From Pelosinus sp. UFO1 (GTDB lineage Bacteria; Bacillota; Negativicutes; DSM-13327), in NCBI RefSeq assembly GCF_000725345.1, contig NZ_CP008852.1, forward strand, positions 1,889,693-1,953,692: 64,000 bases of DNA, given 5' to 3'. The translations under genes and the position numbers were made by a program. The notes under the pieces were generated by a model. It had not been told where the DNA came from. It made no database searches and saw nothing but the letters and a program-made list of their open reading frames with translations. This document shows positions 14,382-23,765 of this stretch, in pieces (position 1 is the first letter of the stretch; each line of letters begins with the position of its first letter).

Positions 14382-14415
14382 AGCCGCCTTACTCGCTTGA
14401 GTGAGACGGCTTTTT
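14382..14415 (+). terminator. Terminator after the LexA-box gene
   Basis: AGCCGCCTTACTC / GAGTGAGACGGCT hairpin followed by TTTTTGATTT. Confidence 0.85.
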
Positions 14416-14524
14416 GATTTTATACCTATCTAAAAGTATGGTGAGTTTTTGTTGTTTGAGGAACTTATTCAATCCAAATTTATATAATAATATAGAATAC
14501 TTTCATAATAAAAAAAGGATTGGA

Positions 14525-15301
14525 ATGAAAATGAGCGAAACTAAAGATATTTTGCCTTATCTTGAATTTCATTTAACAGATCACTGTAATTTAAATTGCA
14601 AAGGGTGCAATCATTTTTCCTCAATTGCAAACGAAAACTACTTAAGTATGGAATCCTTTCTTAAAGATATGAAAAGATTATCTGAAATTTTCTTAAACAT
14701 TACTAAAATTAGAATAATGGGCGGGGAGCCTTTACTCCATCCACTCATTACAAAGTTTGTTCAAGAAACACGTCGTTTTTTCCCTTACAGCGTGATTTCA
14801 GTTGCAACGAATGGAATTTTATTACCTGCAATGGATGTTCATTTTTATAATTGTTTATTTGAAGATAATATCATATTGGATGTATCGATTTATCCTATTA
14901 CAGAAAAACAGATGGTAACTTATCTTGATTTGCCAATACAGCGTAGGATTCCTATTCGGTTTACGAAGGTTAGAAAGTTTTGTAAATCAATAAATGCTTT
15001 GGGCAACTCAGATGCGTTAAGCATGTATATTCAATGCTGGGTAAGAACTTGCACCTTTTTACGGGAGGGTAAAATTTATCATTGTTGTTTACCCGCTTTA
15101 TCTGACATTATCAACCAGAAGTTTAATTTAGCAATACCGAATATAGGTATAGATATACATGAAGATATTTCAGGTTCAGAGATATTGAACTTTATTAGCA
15201 AGCCGTCGCCAGTATGTTCTTACTGTAGCAAAACTGAATGGTTTCCTTGGGAACAATCTAATCAACAGAAAAATGAATGGTTAACATGTAGTGATAAATG
15301 A
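14525..15301 (+). CDS. Radical SAM protein, prophage cargo
   Basis: A 258-residue radical SAM enzyme. HLTDHCNLNCKGCNHFS near residue 15 holds the C-x3-C-x2-C that binds the 4Fe-4S cluster, and RIMGGEPLLHP is the usual GGEP motif for S-adenosylmethionine. Further cysteines, including CWVRTCTFL, HCCLP and CSYCSKTEWFPWE near the end, look like a second cluster site of the SPASM/Twitch type. The frame is open upstream, but the ATG at 14525 after AAAGGATTGG fits best. It sits between phage terminators and the attachment site, so it is cargo. The substrate is unknown. Confidence 0.75.
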   Translation: MKMSETKDILPYLEFHLTDHCNLNCKGCNHFSSIANENYLSMESFLKDMKRLSEIFLNITKIRIMGGEPLLHPLITKFVQETRRFFPYSVISVATNGILLPAMDVHFYNCLFEDNIILDVSIYPITEKQMVTYLDLPIQRRIPIRFTKVRKFCKSINALGNSDALSMYIQCWVRTCTFLREGKIYHCCLPALSDIINQKFNLAIPNIGIDIHEDISGSEILNFISKPSPVCSYCSKTEWFPWEQSNQQKNEWLTCSDK

Positions 15302-15915: not shown

Positions 15916-15960
15916 TTGACATCGAAGAGGTCTGCGGTTCGAGTCCGCCTAACCCCACCA
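15916..15960 (+). other. Prophage right attachment site: 3' half of tRNA-Val(GAC)
   Basis: From 15916 the sequence reads as tRNA from the anticodon loop on: loop TTGACAT (anticodon GAC), stem CGAAG, variable loop AGGTC, T-arm TGCGGTTCGAGTCCGCC, acceptor TAACCCC, discriminator A and CCA. The 5' half is missing: the bases before the loop do not pair as an anticodon stem. Tyrosine integrases often recombine in anticodon loops, so this is what an att site at the prophage edge should look like. The complete tRNA should lie at the left end. Confidence 0.75.
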
Positions 15961-15973
15961 TCTATGAATATAG

Positions 15974-16263: not shown

Positions 16264-16330
16264 CGGGGACAGTTCTTTTTGGCAACTTTATTGTGAAGAA
16301 ATGACAAATAGGACCGTCCCTTCTGACACC
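16264..16330. repeat. REP-like palindromic unit, copy A
   Basis: Starts GGGGACAGTTCTTTTTGGCA and ends GGACCGTCCCTTCTGACACC. The outer GGGACRGTYC / GRRCCGTCCC arms pair with G-T tolerance. A near-identical unit stands at 17879. Units of this look are associated with RAYT-type (IS200-like) transposases in Firmicutes; no such transposase is in the window. Confidence 0.7.
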
Positions 16331-16441: not shown

Positions 16442-16879
16442 ATGTTAACCATAACTTTTGTAAGTTCCTCGGATTTGGGGCAACTTGCCTTACTATATGA
16501 GGAACTTACTGGAACAAAAACTAATATGGTGCTTATGGAAAGCTTGTATAAAAAAATTGCAAATAATACAGATTATATTTTAATCGGGGCAAAAGATGAA
16601 GAACAACGGTTGGTGGGTTCGGTCATGGGAATTGTATGTACCGATATTGTAGGAGAATGCAAACCATTTATGGTGCTTGAAAATGTCATTGTAAGTGAAA
16701 AAAACCGCAGACAAGGTGCAGGTCGTCAATTGGTCAAATATATTGAGAATTGTGCCAGAGAACGGAACTGCTACTATATCATGCTGGTATCCTTGCTCAA
16801 ACGTAAGGAGGCTCATGCTTTTTATAAATCTATTGGATATAAGCTGGGAGTTGTTCAGGGATTTAAAAAATATTTATAA
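16442..16879 (+). CDS. GNAT family N-acetyltransferase
   Basis: A 145-residue acetyltransferase with the GNAT fold. The acetyl-CoA loop is seen in NVIVSEKNRRQGAGRQLVKY (R-x-x-G-x-G/A type) near residue 90, preceded by the VLENVIV strand and followed by the ECA-type helix and AHAFYKSIGYK near 130. The substrate cannot be read. It is followed after 60 bases by a DapF-like gene; the two may form a unit, and the pair is bracketed by two REP-like elements. Confidence 0.88.
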   Translation: MLTITFVSSSDLGQLALLYEELTGTKTNMVLMESLYKKIANNTDYILIGAKDEEQRLVGSVMGIVCTDIVGECKPFMVLENVIVSEKNRRQGAGRQLVKYIENCARERNCYYIMLVSLLKRKEAHAFYKSIGYKLGVVQGFKKYL

Positions 16880-16939
16880 AGAACACGGCTCTGCAGTTTT
16901 AGGGGAAAAGGGTCAGTAGGGCAATGGGGAGGAGATTAA

Positions 16940-17797
16940 ATGGATTTTCATTTTTACAAATACCATGCTTTGGGTAATGATTATATTGTCATTGATCCCA
17001 ACAAGACCAGAGTTAACTTATCTGAGGAAAACATTAGGTTGATTTGCCACCGCAATTTTGGTATCGGCTCGGATGGTATCTTATACGGTCCATTATTTCA
17101 AAATGATTCCATCTATTTAAGGATATTAAATCCGGACGGAAGCGAGGCCGAGAAAAGCGGCAATGGAATCAGGATTTTTTCCCGGTATCTATTTGATGCT
17201 GGCTATTTAAAATCCTACCAGTTTTATATTGAAACGTTAGGTGGAAAAGTCCACGTTGAATTATTAGACTCTAAGGCAAATCAAATAAAAGTGGATATGG
17301 GACAAGTCACTTTTTATAGCACTAAAATACCAGTGGCTGGTACCCCGCGTGAAGTTATAAGTGAAGAGTTAATTATCAATGAAAGAAAGTTTACTGTGAG
17401 TTGTCTTTCAATAGGAAATCCGCATTGCGTAATTCCTCTTAATGCTGTCTCGAGGGAACTTGCAGAAGAATTGGGTCCTATTATTGAGAATTATAAGCTT
17501 TTTCCTAACAGAATAAATGTTCAATTTCTTCAAGTGCTTGATCGTAATAATATTAAAATAGAGATTTGGGAGCGTGGAGCAGGTTATACATTGGCATCAG
17601 GTAGTAGTAGTTGTGCGGCAGCAAGTGCCGCTTTTCAGCTCGGCATGGTCGATAGTGATGTAGATGTTCACATGCCAGGTGGAACAATTAGCATAATAAT
17701 AAGTCCTGATGGACATGTGCACATGACTGGTTCGGTAACAGGGGTTAGCAAAGGATGTTTCTCGGATGACCTCTTAGCGCAAATCTCTAATTGCTGA
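16940..17797 (+). CDS. DapF-like epimerase-fold protein with both catalytic Cys replaced by Ser
   Basis: A 285-residue protein that aligns along its length with diaminopimelate epimerase (YHALGNDYIVID, NPDGSEAEKSGNG, LSIGNPHCVIP, WERGAGYTLASGSSSCA). In true DapF the motifs are QCGNG (Cys73) and ACGSGAC (Cys217), the two cysteines that act as acid and base. Here they read KSGNG (Ser73) and ASGSSSC (Ser220). The lysine-pathway reaction is therefore unlikely, and a different epimerase, isomerase or dehydratase reaction is more plausible. GGGAGGAG precedes the ATG. It follows a GNAT gene, which could act on the same amino acid. Confidence 0.8.
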   Translation: MDFHFYKYHALGNDYIVIDPNKTRVNLSEENIRLICHRNFGIGSDGILYGPLFQNDSIYLRILNPDGSEAEKSGNGIRIFSRYLFDAGYLKSYQFYIETLGGKVHVELLDSKANQIKVDMGQVTFYSTKIPVAGTPREVISEELIINERKFTVSCLSIGNPHCVIPLNAVSRELAEELGPIIENYKLFPNRINVQFLQVLDRNNIKIEIWERGAGYTLASGSSSCAAASAAFQLGMVDSDVDVHMPGGTISIIISPDGHVHMTGSVTGVSKGCFSDDLLAQISNC

Positions 17798-17878: not shown

Positions 17879-17944
17879 GGGGATGGTCCTTATTGGCAAC
17901 TTTATTGTGAAAGAATGACAAATAGGGCCGTCCCTACTGACACC
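17879..17944. repeat. REP-like palindromic unit, copy B
   Basis: GGGGATGGTCCTTATTGGCA ... GGGCCGTCCCTACTGACACC, nearly identical to copy A at 16264. Its end coincides with the start of the truncated RusA frame at 17943, so it appears to have replaced or cut that gene. Confidence 0.7.
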
Positions 17945-18131: not shown

Positions 18132-18392
18132 CTAGCGCGGCCAACAATCTTGTCTAGGCCAGCAACTTCGCCGAGGCCAACAAGATCTTCTAGGCCAACA
18201 GCTGTCATTAGGCCAGCATCCTTGATTAGGGCAGCAATTTCTCCTAGGCCAGCAACACCTAGGGAAACAAGAACCACTGGGATAACACCAATAGCCAAAT
18301 TCCCATAAATCTGATGCATAGAGTTTTTTTCTGGAATTTGGGTCTTCTCTCCATTCATCAATATCAGGATCTCCCCATTTACGATAATCCAT
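18132..18392 (-). CDS. Cys-Trp-Pro hexapeptide-repeat protein (possible spore surface protein)
   Basis: An 86-residue protein starting MDYRKWGDPDIDEWREDPNS at ATG 18392, with AGGAGGTGAT upstream. From residue 44 it consists of about seven six-residue units of the type C-W-P-R-R-S. The reading frame is supported by the repeats: the unit RRS is written aga aga tct in one copy and cgg cga agt in the next, changes that are silent only in this frame. Two other overlapping frames are shadows. The composition suggests a cross-linked or metal-binding coat-like protein; function unknown. Confidence 0.65.
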   Translation of the reverse strand: MDYRKWGDPDIDEWREDPNSRKKLYASDLWEFGYWCYPSGSCFPRCCWPRRNCCPNQGCWPNDSCWPRRSCWPRRSCWPRQDCWPR

Positions 18393-21712: not shown

Positions 21713-22705
21713 TTATTCGGCAAAATAATCTTTGTAATGATATAAAGCAGGTGATCCGCCTGTATGAACAAAGACTACATTCTCGCCTTTCTTAAAGCGA
21801 CCTTGACGAATCAGCCCAATTAGTCCTGAGAAAGATTTGCCAGTATATACAGGGTCTAATAAGATTGCTTCCGTTCTAGCCATCAGTCTAACAGCTTCTA
21901 CCATTGCAGACGTAGCTAACGAATATCCTGATCCAACGTATCCCTCAACACACTCAATAATTTCTTCAGGGAATTGAAGTCCAAACCGTGCTGCTGTCAA
22001 TACGGCGTCTTTAATGATTATCGGGCGTTGGGTTTCATTCGGTCTGCTGATATTGATACCTACTACCGGAATGCCAGTATTATTTCCCCAAAAGCCTACT
22101 GCTAATCCCCCATGAGTACCACCGCTGCCGCTAGTGCAAACCACGCAGTCAATATTTAGACCTTTATCAAAGGCTTGCTCTAAAATTTCTTCTGCACAGG
22201 CGACATAGCCCAATGATCCTACAGCATTGGAACCGCCACCGGGAATAATATATGGTTTTCCGCCTTTTTTGCGAACATCTTCAGCTACTTTTTCCATGGC
22301 TTCCATCATATTAGACCCACCAGGAACAACAGTAATTCCTGCAACACCCATTAGGTGAAATAAAAAGTTATTTCCAGATGCATTCTCGTTGTAACTGCCA
22401 GATACCCGCTCCTCAATTACAAGGTGGCAAGGCATCCCTTCTTTACAGGCTGCCGCTAGCGTTAGGCGAGCGTGATTGGACTGAACAGCACCACAGGTAA
22501 TCAGTGTATCGGCACCTTTAGCTAAAGCATCCGCAACTAGGAACTCTAGCTTGCGTGTTTTGTTGCCGCCACCTGCCAGCCCAAGCATATCATCTCTTTT
22601 AATCCAAATATTCGGACCATCTAATGCCTCGGTAAGACGAGGTAAAAATTCTAATGGAGTTTGTCCCTCAGTATAACGTCGACGTGGAAATTGTGCAAGA
22701 TTCAA
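21713..22705 (-). CDS. dcyD: D-cysteine desulfhydrase (PLP-dependent, ACC deaminase family)
   Basis: A 330-residue fold-type II PLP enzyme. IWIKRDDMLGLAGGGNKTRK carries the PLP lysine (residue about 49), LITCGAVQSNHARLTLAAA the substrate loop, and CTSGSGGTHGG the phosphate-binding Gly-rich turn. These fit D-cysteine desulfhydrase, which makes pyruvate, sulfide and ammonia, better than ACC deaminase, but the two families are close. It is divergent from a LysR gene with a clear operator between them. Sulfide release fits the other sulfur gene here, the encapsulated cysteine desulfurase. Confidence 0.85.
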   Translation of the reverse strand: MNLAQFPRRRYTEGQTPLEFLPRLTEALDGPNIWIKRDDMLGLAGGGNKTRKLEFLVADALAKGADTLITCGAVQSNHARLTLAAACKEGMPCHLVIEERVSGSYNENASGNNFLFHLMGVAGITVVPGGSNMMEAMEKVAEDVRKKGGKPYIIPGGGSNAVGSLGYVACAEEILEQAFDKGLNIDCVVCTSGSGGTHGGLAVGFWGNNTGIPVVGINISRPNETQRPIIIKDAVLTAARFGLQFPEEIIECVEGYVGSGYSLATSAMVEAVRLMARTEAILLDPVYTGKSFSGLIGLIRQGRFKKGENVVFVHTGGSPALYHYKDYFAE

Positions 22706-22856: not shown

Positions 22857-23765
22857 ATGGATCAGTCTTTGCTTGTCTTTATCACAGTTGTGGAAAAAAA
22901 GAGTTTTACACGTGCGGCAGATGCACTACATATGACACAACCAGCGGTTAGTCAATATATTCAAATGCTAGAAAGAAACGTTGGGACAAAACTATTGGAC
23001 CGTAATAATAAGTATGTGCAATTGAATAAAGCCGGGGAAATTGTCTATCACCACGCAAACGAGATCATTGGCCTCTATACACAAATGCAGAATCTAATAG
23101 ATGACACGCTGAATAAGGCTAGCGGCAACCTATCCATAGGTGCAAGTTATACCTTCGGAGAATACGTACTGCCTCATATTGTGGCCTATTTACGCGCAAA
23201 ACATCCCCTGATAAAGCCCAAAATCACTATAGCAAATACAAAAAGAATTTCCGAGTGGGTAGCAAACCGCCAGTTAGATATTGGAATCGTTGATGGCGAG
23301 GTTCAACATAATAATTTACACATGGAAGCATTTGCCGATGATCTAATGTATATAGTTGCTGCCGCCAATAAGCCATGTGCAAATCAACACACACAGAAGA
23401 TAGCTGATTTTAAAAATGAGACTTGGATTATTCGCGAAGAAACGTCCGGAACACGAGAAGCAACGGAAAAAATGTTTTCTGGGTTAAACTTTTATCCGGA
23501 AAACATTATGGAGTTTGGAAGTACACAAATCATTAAGGAATCTGTGCAGGCAGGACTGGGTATTACATTATTATCACATTGCACAATCCAAAATGAAGTA
23601 TCGTTAGGCATCCTTAAGATAATCGATGTGGTCGGGAGTCCTTTTAAACGAAAGTTTTCGTTAATTACACCTCCTACTCGATTCAAAACAAAAATTACAA
23701 CAGTCTTTATAGACGTTTTGCGAGACCATAAAGGCTTACCTAACTTTTTTGGAAAACCTATTTGA
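22857..23765 (+). CDS. LysR-family transcriptional regulator
   Basis: A 302-residue LysR regulator. The N-terminal helix-turn-helix is clear (FTRAADALHMTQPAVSQYIQ, residues about 18-37), followed by a linker helix and the effector domain with the usual GLGITLLSH stretch near 237. AAGGGG precedes the ATG. It is divergent from dcyD with an inverted-repeat operator between them, so it probably controls D-cysteine breakdown. Confidence 0.9.
   Translation: MDQSLLVFITVVEKKSFTRAADALHMTQPAVSQYIQMLERNVGTKLLDRNNKYVQLNKAGEIVYHHANEIIGLYTQMQNLIDDTLNKASGNLSIGASYTFGEYVLPHIVAYLRAKHPLIKPKITIANTKRISEWVANRQLDIGIVDGEVQHNNLHMEAFADDLMYIVAAANKPCANQHTQKIADFKNETWIIREETSGTREATEKMFSGLNFYPENIMEFGSTQIIKESVQAGLGITLLSHCTIQNEVSLGILKIIDVVGSPFKRKFSLITPPTRFKTKITTVFIDVLRDHKGLPNFFGKPI

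Follow-up and report, generated by a model that had tools for sequence, protein, structure and literature searches.

Introduction

Catalysis by cofactor-independent racemases is attributed to a pair formed by a thiol and a thiolate, and their Cys-to-Ser mutants serve as inactive forms. The closest described system to the protein studied here is diaminopimelate (DAP) epimerase, DapF (EC 5.1.1.7; TIGR00652, PF01678), with structures from Anabaena (9MRO) and H. influenzae (1GQZ/2GKE). The DapF fold is shared by other cofactor-independent enzymes, namely O-ureidoserine racemase (7VDY), HisR/CntK, and the 2,4-diaminobutyrate racemase PddB. O-ureidoserine racemase uses a Cys pair, as do HisR, CntK, and PddB. 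In the proline racemase superfamily, some members have Ser or Thr in place of a catalytic residue and so indicate that the fold tolerates a hydroxyl group there, although their substrates differ; we know of none in that superfamily with Ser at both positions that acts on DAP.

Single Cys-to-Ser changes leave PddB with less than 0.1% of its activity (PMC8225329), and activity is greatly reduced by Cys-to-Ser substitution in HisR (PMC11602996). An enzyme with two natural serines would thus be expected to need compensating help. Engineered C73S and C217S forms of DapF (PDB 2Q9H and 2Q9J) have one catalytic serine each and are among the nearest structures to the protein described here, but they are laboratory single mutants of a Cys/Cys enzyme. 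We found no papers giving their kinetics in the openly licensed literature, which likewise yielded no mention of a natural Ser/Ser DapF and no published assay of any Ser/Ser member.

Here we describe a DapF homologue in which both catalytic cysteines are replaced by serine, as in a whole clade of natural double-Ser proteins with co-conserved neighboring residues. This clade is a sister group of DapF without the thiols, and its members most likely interconvert LL- and meso-DAP. Being DapF-like but without the defining cysteines, the clade is treated here as a DapF variant rather than as an ordinary member of the family.

Results

A DapF homologue with two catalytic serines

The window, that is, the whole stretch of 64,000 nucleotides that was analyzed, is set in a complete genome of 5.1 Mb, probably that of a Negativicute, with Anaerospora and Selenomonadales among its relatives. 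The Ser/Ser gene and its flanking features are as follows.

16265–16330, no strand: 66-bp direct repeat, left copy
16442–16879, + strand: GNAT acetyltransferase, 145 amino acids, 60 bp upstream of the Ser/Ser gene
16926–16934, + strand: predicted ribosome-binding site GGGGAGGAG, read from the sequence
16940–17797, + strand: Ser/Ser DapF homologue, 285 amino acids (open reading frame, profile matches, alignment, and tree)
17153–17158, + strand: codons of Lys72-Ser73, first catalytic position (M-Cys in most ordinary DapF proteins)
17585–17599, + strand: codons of Tyr216 to Ser220, second catalytic position (xTLAC in ordinary DapF)
17879–17944, no strand: 66-bp direct repeat, right copy

The open reading frame starts with ATG, and its product scores 240.9 bits against the TIGR00652 DapF profile (cut-off 114.65). 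PF01678 is its sole Pfam match (190.1 bits); the PhzF-like family PF02567 does not match it, and the PF02567 matches of this genome sit elsewhere. Serine at both catalytic cysteine positions, as had been claimed in a preliminary description of this DNA, was confirmed: Ser73 is encoded by AGC (17156–17158) and Ser220 by TCA (17597–17599). The two direct repeats are 88% identical and bracket the pair formed by the GNAT gene, a probable operon partner, and the Ser/Ser gene. No further copies occur elsewhere within the window, and the repeats may be REP-like or the trace of a mobilization.

The genome encodes two DapF-family proteins. A search for the true dapF, as proposed in the preliminary description, located a separate Cys/Cys protein (G000:C1:2553278-2554108) that is 35% identical to the window protein. 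The conversion of LL-DAP to meso-DAP is therefore not left to the Ser/Ser protein alone in this genome.

The Ser/Ser proteins form a single widespread clade

Ser73 and Ser220 are invariant in 21 aligned relatives. Both serines were present at 100 of 100 loci drawn from named genomes and from the window's class, which were collected with two search patterns, one including Ser73 and neither including Ser220. In a larger set that takes in Verrucomicrobiota and added Cys/Cys sequences, 139 distinct sequences were Ser/Ser and 31 were Cys/Cys (one of these a fragment spanning the second catalytic position only), with no mixed Ser/Cys sequence. The occurrence of both serines in 139 distinct sequences led us to reject a sequencing or assembly error. 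A tree of DapF paralogues, also proposed earlier, was inferred by maximum likelihood after removal of the catalytic columns; the Ser/Ser rows were all grouped together by a branch whose SH-aLRT support was 100. Convergent or scattered loss of cysteine was rejected on this basis. The Ser/Ser clade is thus a real, monophyletic, and widespread variant.

A search of 300 genomes of the window's class gave 28 orthologues including the window's own. The other 27 are 59–85% identical to it, as compared to at most 41% for ordinary DapF. Hundreds of further orthologues appeared in a scan with one genome per species, and the best 80 of these span Bacillota, Verrucomicrobiota, Planctomycetota, Spirochaetota, Cyanobacteriota, deltaproteobacterial lineages, and others. 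Although a prophage tail region precedes the Ser/Ser gene, carriage as phage cargo was rejected, as phage and plasmid records held no close copy (all matches below 60% identity, the best among the matches listed being 42%).

Two genomes, those of Dulcicalothrix desertica (L060/L112, G302) and a Ruminiclostridium MAG (L062/L065, G332), were observed to carry two Ser/Ser copies each along with one Cys/Cys DapF.

DAP-binding residues and fold are retained

The residues that hold DAP were taken from structures of Anabaena DapF, in which the backbone amide of Gly227 bonds the catalytic sulfur (PMC12039745). In the Ser/Ser set, N13, N64, G74, N75, N160, H162, N193, E211, R212, and G221 are invariant or present in 138 of 139 sequences, so that proximal and distal DAP contacts are retained, the distal ones in Firmicutes members too. 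The counterpart of Thr226 is Ser222 or Thr, a conservative change. Residues specific to the clade cluster at the catalytic positions (139 sequences): Lys72 (100%), which like Ser73 occurs in 139 of 139, replaces the Met, Thr, or Leu of DapF; Tyr216 (99%) replaces Ile, Glu, or Val; and Ser223 (99%) replaces Gly, being the counterpart of Gly227.

The AlphaFold2 model of the window protein has a pLDDT of 92.9, and its best match in the PDB is Anabaena DapF (9mro; TM-score 0.89/0.91). Ser73 and Ser220 immediately precede helices 74–86 and 221–233 in the model, like the cysteines of DapF. The preliminary view that the fold is kept despite the substitutions is borne out by the model. The protein thus resembles DapF in fold, length, DAP contacts, placement of the catalytic residues at helix N-termini, and, in several genomes, dap/lys context; it differs in having both cysteines replaced, in its identity of about 35%, and in its placement in a separate clade.

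The distal contacts bear on the substrate. In PddB, which acts on 2,4-diaminobutyrate, the residues contacting the distal carboxylate of DAP are replaced (PMC8225329). Their retention in the Ser/Ser clade argues for DAP as the substrate. The preliminary description had held that the swap brings new chemistry on another substrate. This is doubtful given that the DAP-binding residues are kept and that several members lie in dap/lys operons.

Cys/Thr trans-3-hydroxyproline dehydratases belong to the proline racemase superfamily, and the serines might, on the analogy drawn in the preliminary description, make a dehydratase or eliminase. Such enzymes do occur among the distant matches of the fold search, but DapF proteins account for all the best matches in both fold and sequence, DAP offers no leaving group at the beta position, and neither placement in dap operons nor the replacement of DapF in Verrucomicrobiota fits this chemistry. 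We regard it as very improbable, the least favored of the explanations considered.

Ser/Ser proteins as the only DapF-family proteins of a genome

The product of DapL is LL-DAP. Bacterial LysA acts on meso-DAP, and some enzyme must therefore epimerize LL-DAP in Ser/Ser-only genomes that carry a lysA homologue and lack meso-DAP dehydrogenase (Ddh). Most genomes in the following distribution tests are MAGs or drafts.

Among 40 Ser/Ser genomes, 25 have the Ser/Ser protein as their only PF01678 protein above the family cut-off. In this first sole-copy set, 24 genomes lack Ddh, 19 have DapL above cut-off, and all 25 have a LysA-type match, above cut-off in 20. More than one Alr C-terminal domain was found in none of the 25. 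The closed genome CP011265.1, one of the 25, has the Ser/Ser protein as sole DapF-family protein, plus DapL and one Alr-type protein; with this single Alr-type protein, no spare PLP-type DapF2 is seen there. Sole-copy genomes beyond Verrucomicrobiota include the MAG chromosome CP070660.1 and MAGs of Halanaerobiales and Poribacteria, whose Ser/Ser proteins share 63% and 66% identity, respectively, with that of the window.

A sample of 240 Verrucomicrobiota genomes comprised 48 with the Ser/Ser type, about 170 with the ordinary type only, and 22 without a match. The two types are nearly mutually exclusive in this sample (Fisher p = 2.5e-28, with shared ancestry ignored, and with ordinary-type genomes classed by identity, about ten of them spot-checked as Cys/Cys). 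No other DapF-family protein was found in 45 of the 48 Ser/Ser genomes, the other three having a divergent second one. Three of these 45 have Ddh and one shows no lysA match. In the other 41 of the 48, CP011265.1 among them, the Ser/Ser protein is the sole DapF-family protein, Ddh is absent, and a lysA homologue is present, although for many of them the LysA match falls short of the family cut-off. A bypass through Ddh was rejected because the enzyme is absent from 44 of 47 Verrucomicrobiota Ser/Ser genomes, as from nearly all of the first sole-copy set. DAP has been detected in Opitutus terrae (PMC5303756); this species was dropped as a clean test case, since Ddh is present and the detection is uninformative about the Ser/Ser enzyme.

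Judged from genome content, the DapF family offers no candidate other than the Ser/Ser protein for the conversion of LL-DAP to meso-DAP in the 41 genomes, which is consistent with the clade filling this step. A lysine-making bacterium without another dapF is what the preliminary description had named as counting against its reading, and at the genome level many relatives are of this kind. Its expectation that the protein would be misannotated as DapF is likewise doubtful, as in many relatives no other DapF-family protein exists.

The DapF-like protein could instead be regulatory and catalytically dead, the reaction in Ser/Ser-only genomes being left to an unrecognized epimerase. This would agree with the near inactivity of Cys-to-Ser mutants of Cys/Cys enzymes, and for Staphylococcus a DapF2 of the PLP type has been put forward (PMC9026213). 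However, the binding site and both serines are strictly conserved across several phyla, a second Alr-type protein was not found in Ser/Ser-only genomes, and a dead protein leaves the mutual exclusion unexplained. Such a role thus seems highly unlikely, if slightly less so than a dehydratase.

Gene neighborhoods

Several Ser/Ser genes share operons with dap or lys genes. At L088 the order is lysC, dapB, dapA (in two fragments), and the Ser/Ser gene; at L114 it is Ser/Ser, dapA, and dapB; and at L082 it is dapB, Ser/Ser, and a DapL-like aminotransferase (under the cut-off of the DapL model). At L062 and L060, lysA is followed by the Ser/Ser gene. Instead of dap/lys genes, a GNAT gene is the neighbor at the window locus and at several loci from Firmicutes and Planctomycetota. 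Of the GNAT partnership put forward in the preliminary description, the pairing at the window locus is real, but a GNAT gene is adjacent in only a minority of the relatives' loci. Within a distance of two genes from Ser/Ser genes, GNAT genes show some enrichment (16/303 versus 12/798, p = 0.0009, with neighboring GNATs as seeds of the search and some near-duplicate loci included).

This enrichment would suit an epimerase or racemase of another diamino or dicarboxylic amino acid or of a DAP derivative (e.g., N-acetyl-DAP, given the GNAT), arising by duplication and drift of DapF at least in the Firmicutes branch. In keeping with such an origin, 27 of the 28 Ser/Ser genomes of the window's class also keep a Cys/Cys DapF, and an Irr/2OG-oxygenase cluster on a plasmid of Agrobacterium vitis includes a divergent Ser/Ser relative. 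On the other hand, every distal DAP-binding residue is retained in Firmicutes members too, two members of the same branch (L043 and L044) are the sole DapF-family proteins of their genomes, and dap/lys genes share operons with Ser/Ser members. We consider a different substrate unlikely, whether another amino acid or a DAP derivative, though less so than a dehydratase or a dead protein.

The plasmid relative (L210:5953-6849, NZ_AP023281.1, WP_180608185.1) is 40% identical to the window protein. It has Arg72, again a basic residue, lacks Tyr216 and Asn160, and has as neighbors a regulator of the Irr type, a 2OG-Fe dioxygenase, and a redox enzyme that contains iron. It is probably a natural-product enzyme with another substrate.

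A putative thiol-free DAP epimerase

Together, these observations make it reasonably probable that the clade consists of thiol-free DAP epimerases. With a slightly lower likelihood, the clade would constitute a second catalytic solution for 1,1-proton transfer at the unactivated alpha-carbon of an amino acid, in which a Ser/Ser enzyme assisted by Lys and Tyr has replaced the Cys/Cys enzyme in whole bacterial lineages and coexists with it elsewhere. Ser73 and Ser220 would provide two opposed acid/base groups on either face of the alpha-carbon. Assistance is predicted from clade-specific residues, above all Lys72, the immediate neighbor of Ser73, and Tyr216, which precedes Ser220 by four residues. 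Their basic and phenolic side chains could depress or share the pKa of the hydroxyl groups, and Ser223 might also tune or relay the proton with them. Alternatively, Lys72 and Tyr216 may themselves carry the proton as bases.

As an extra gene beside a Cys/Cys DapF in nearly every Ser/Ser genome of its class, the window copy is less certain to be a DAP epimerase than is the clade, and it need not do the same job. It would be a second enzyme in its genome, probably coexpressed with the GNAT, and a specialized or oxidation-proof role, perhaps together with the GNAT, is possible.

If the clade does epimerize DAP, the deprotonation of a carbon of pKa ~29 could be tested by comparing Ser/Ser with Cys/Cys enzymes. 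Thiol-directed inhibitors of DapF, such as aziridino-DAP, should fail on Ser/Ser bacteria, and Ser/Ser activity could resist oxidation.

Other features of the window

Directly downstream of the prophage tail genes, a short protein of the radical SAM type is encoded (14414–15301, + strand); it has a CxxxCxxC motif, and MoaA and viperin-like models match it only under cut-off. A stretch at about 15930–15961 resembles a tRNA 3' end, with a GGTTCGAGTCC arm plus CCA; a tRNA gene search found none there, and the stretch is possibly a remnant of prophage attachment. Six tandem units of 18 bp (GGCCAACAA-like) at 18139–18256 encode a CWPRR-type repeat in one reading frame. Farther downstream, a D-cysteate sulfo-lyase, CuyA (21713–22705, − strand; 505.8 bits, cut-off 450), is divergent from the gene for a LysR-type regulator, named by sequence reading (22857–23765, + strand).
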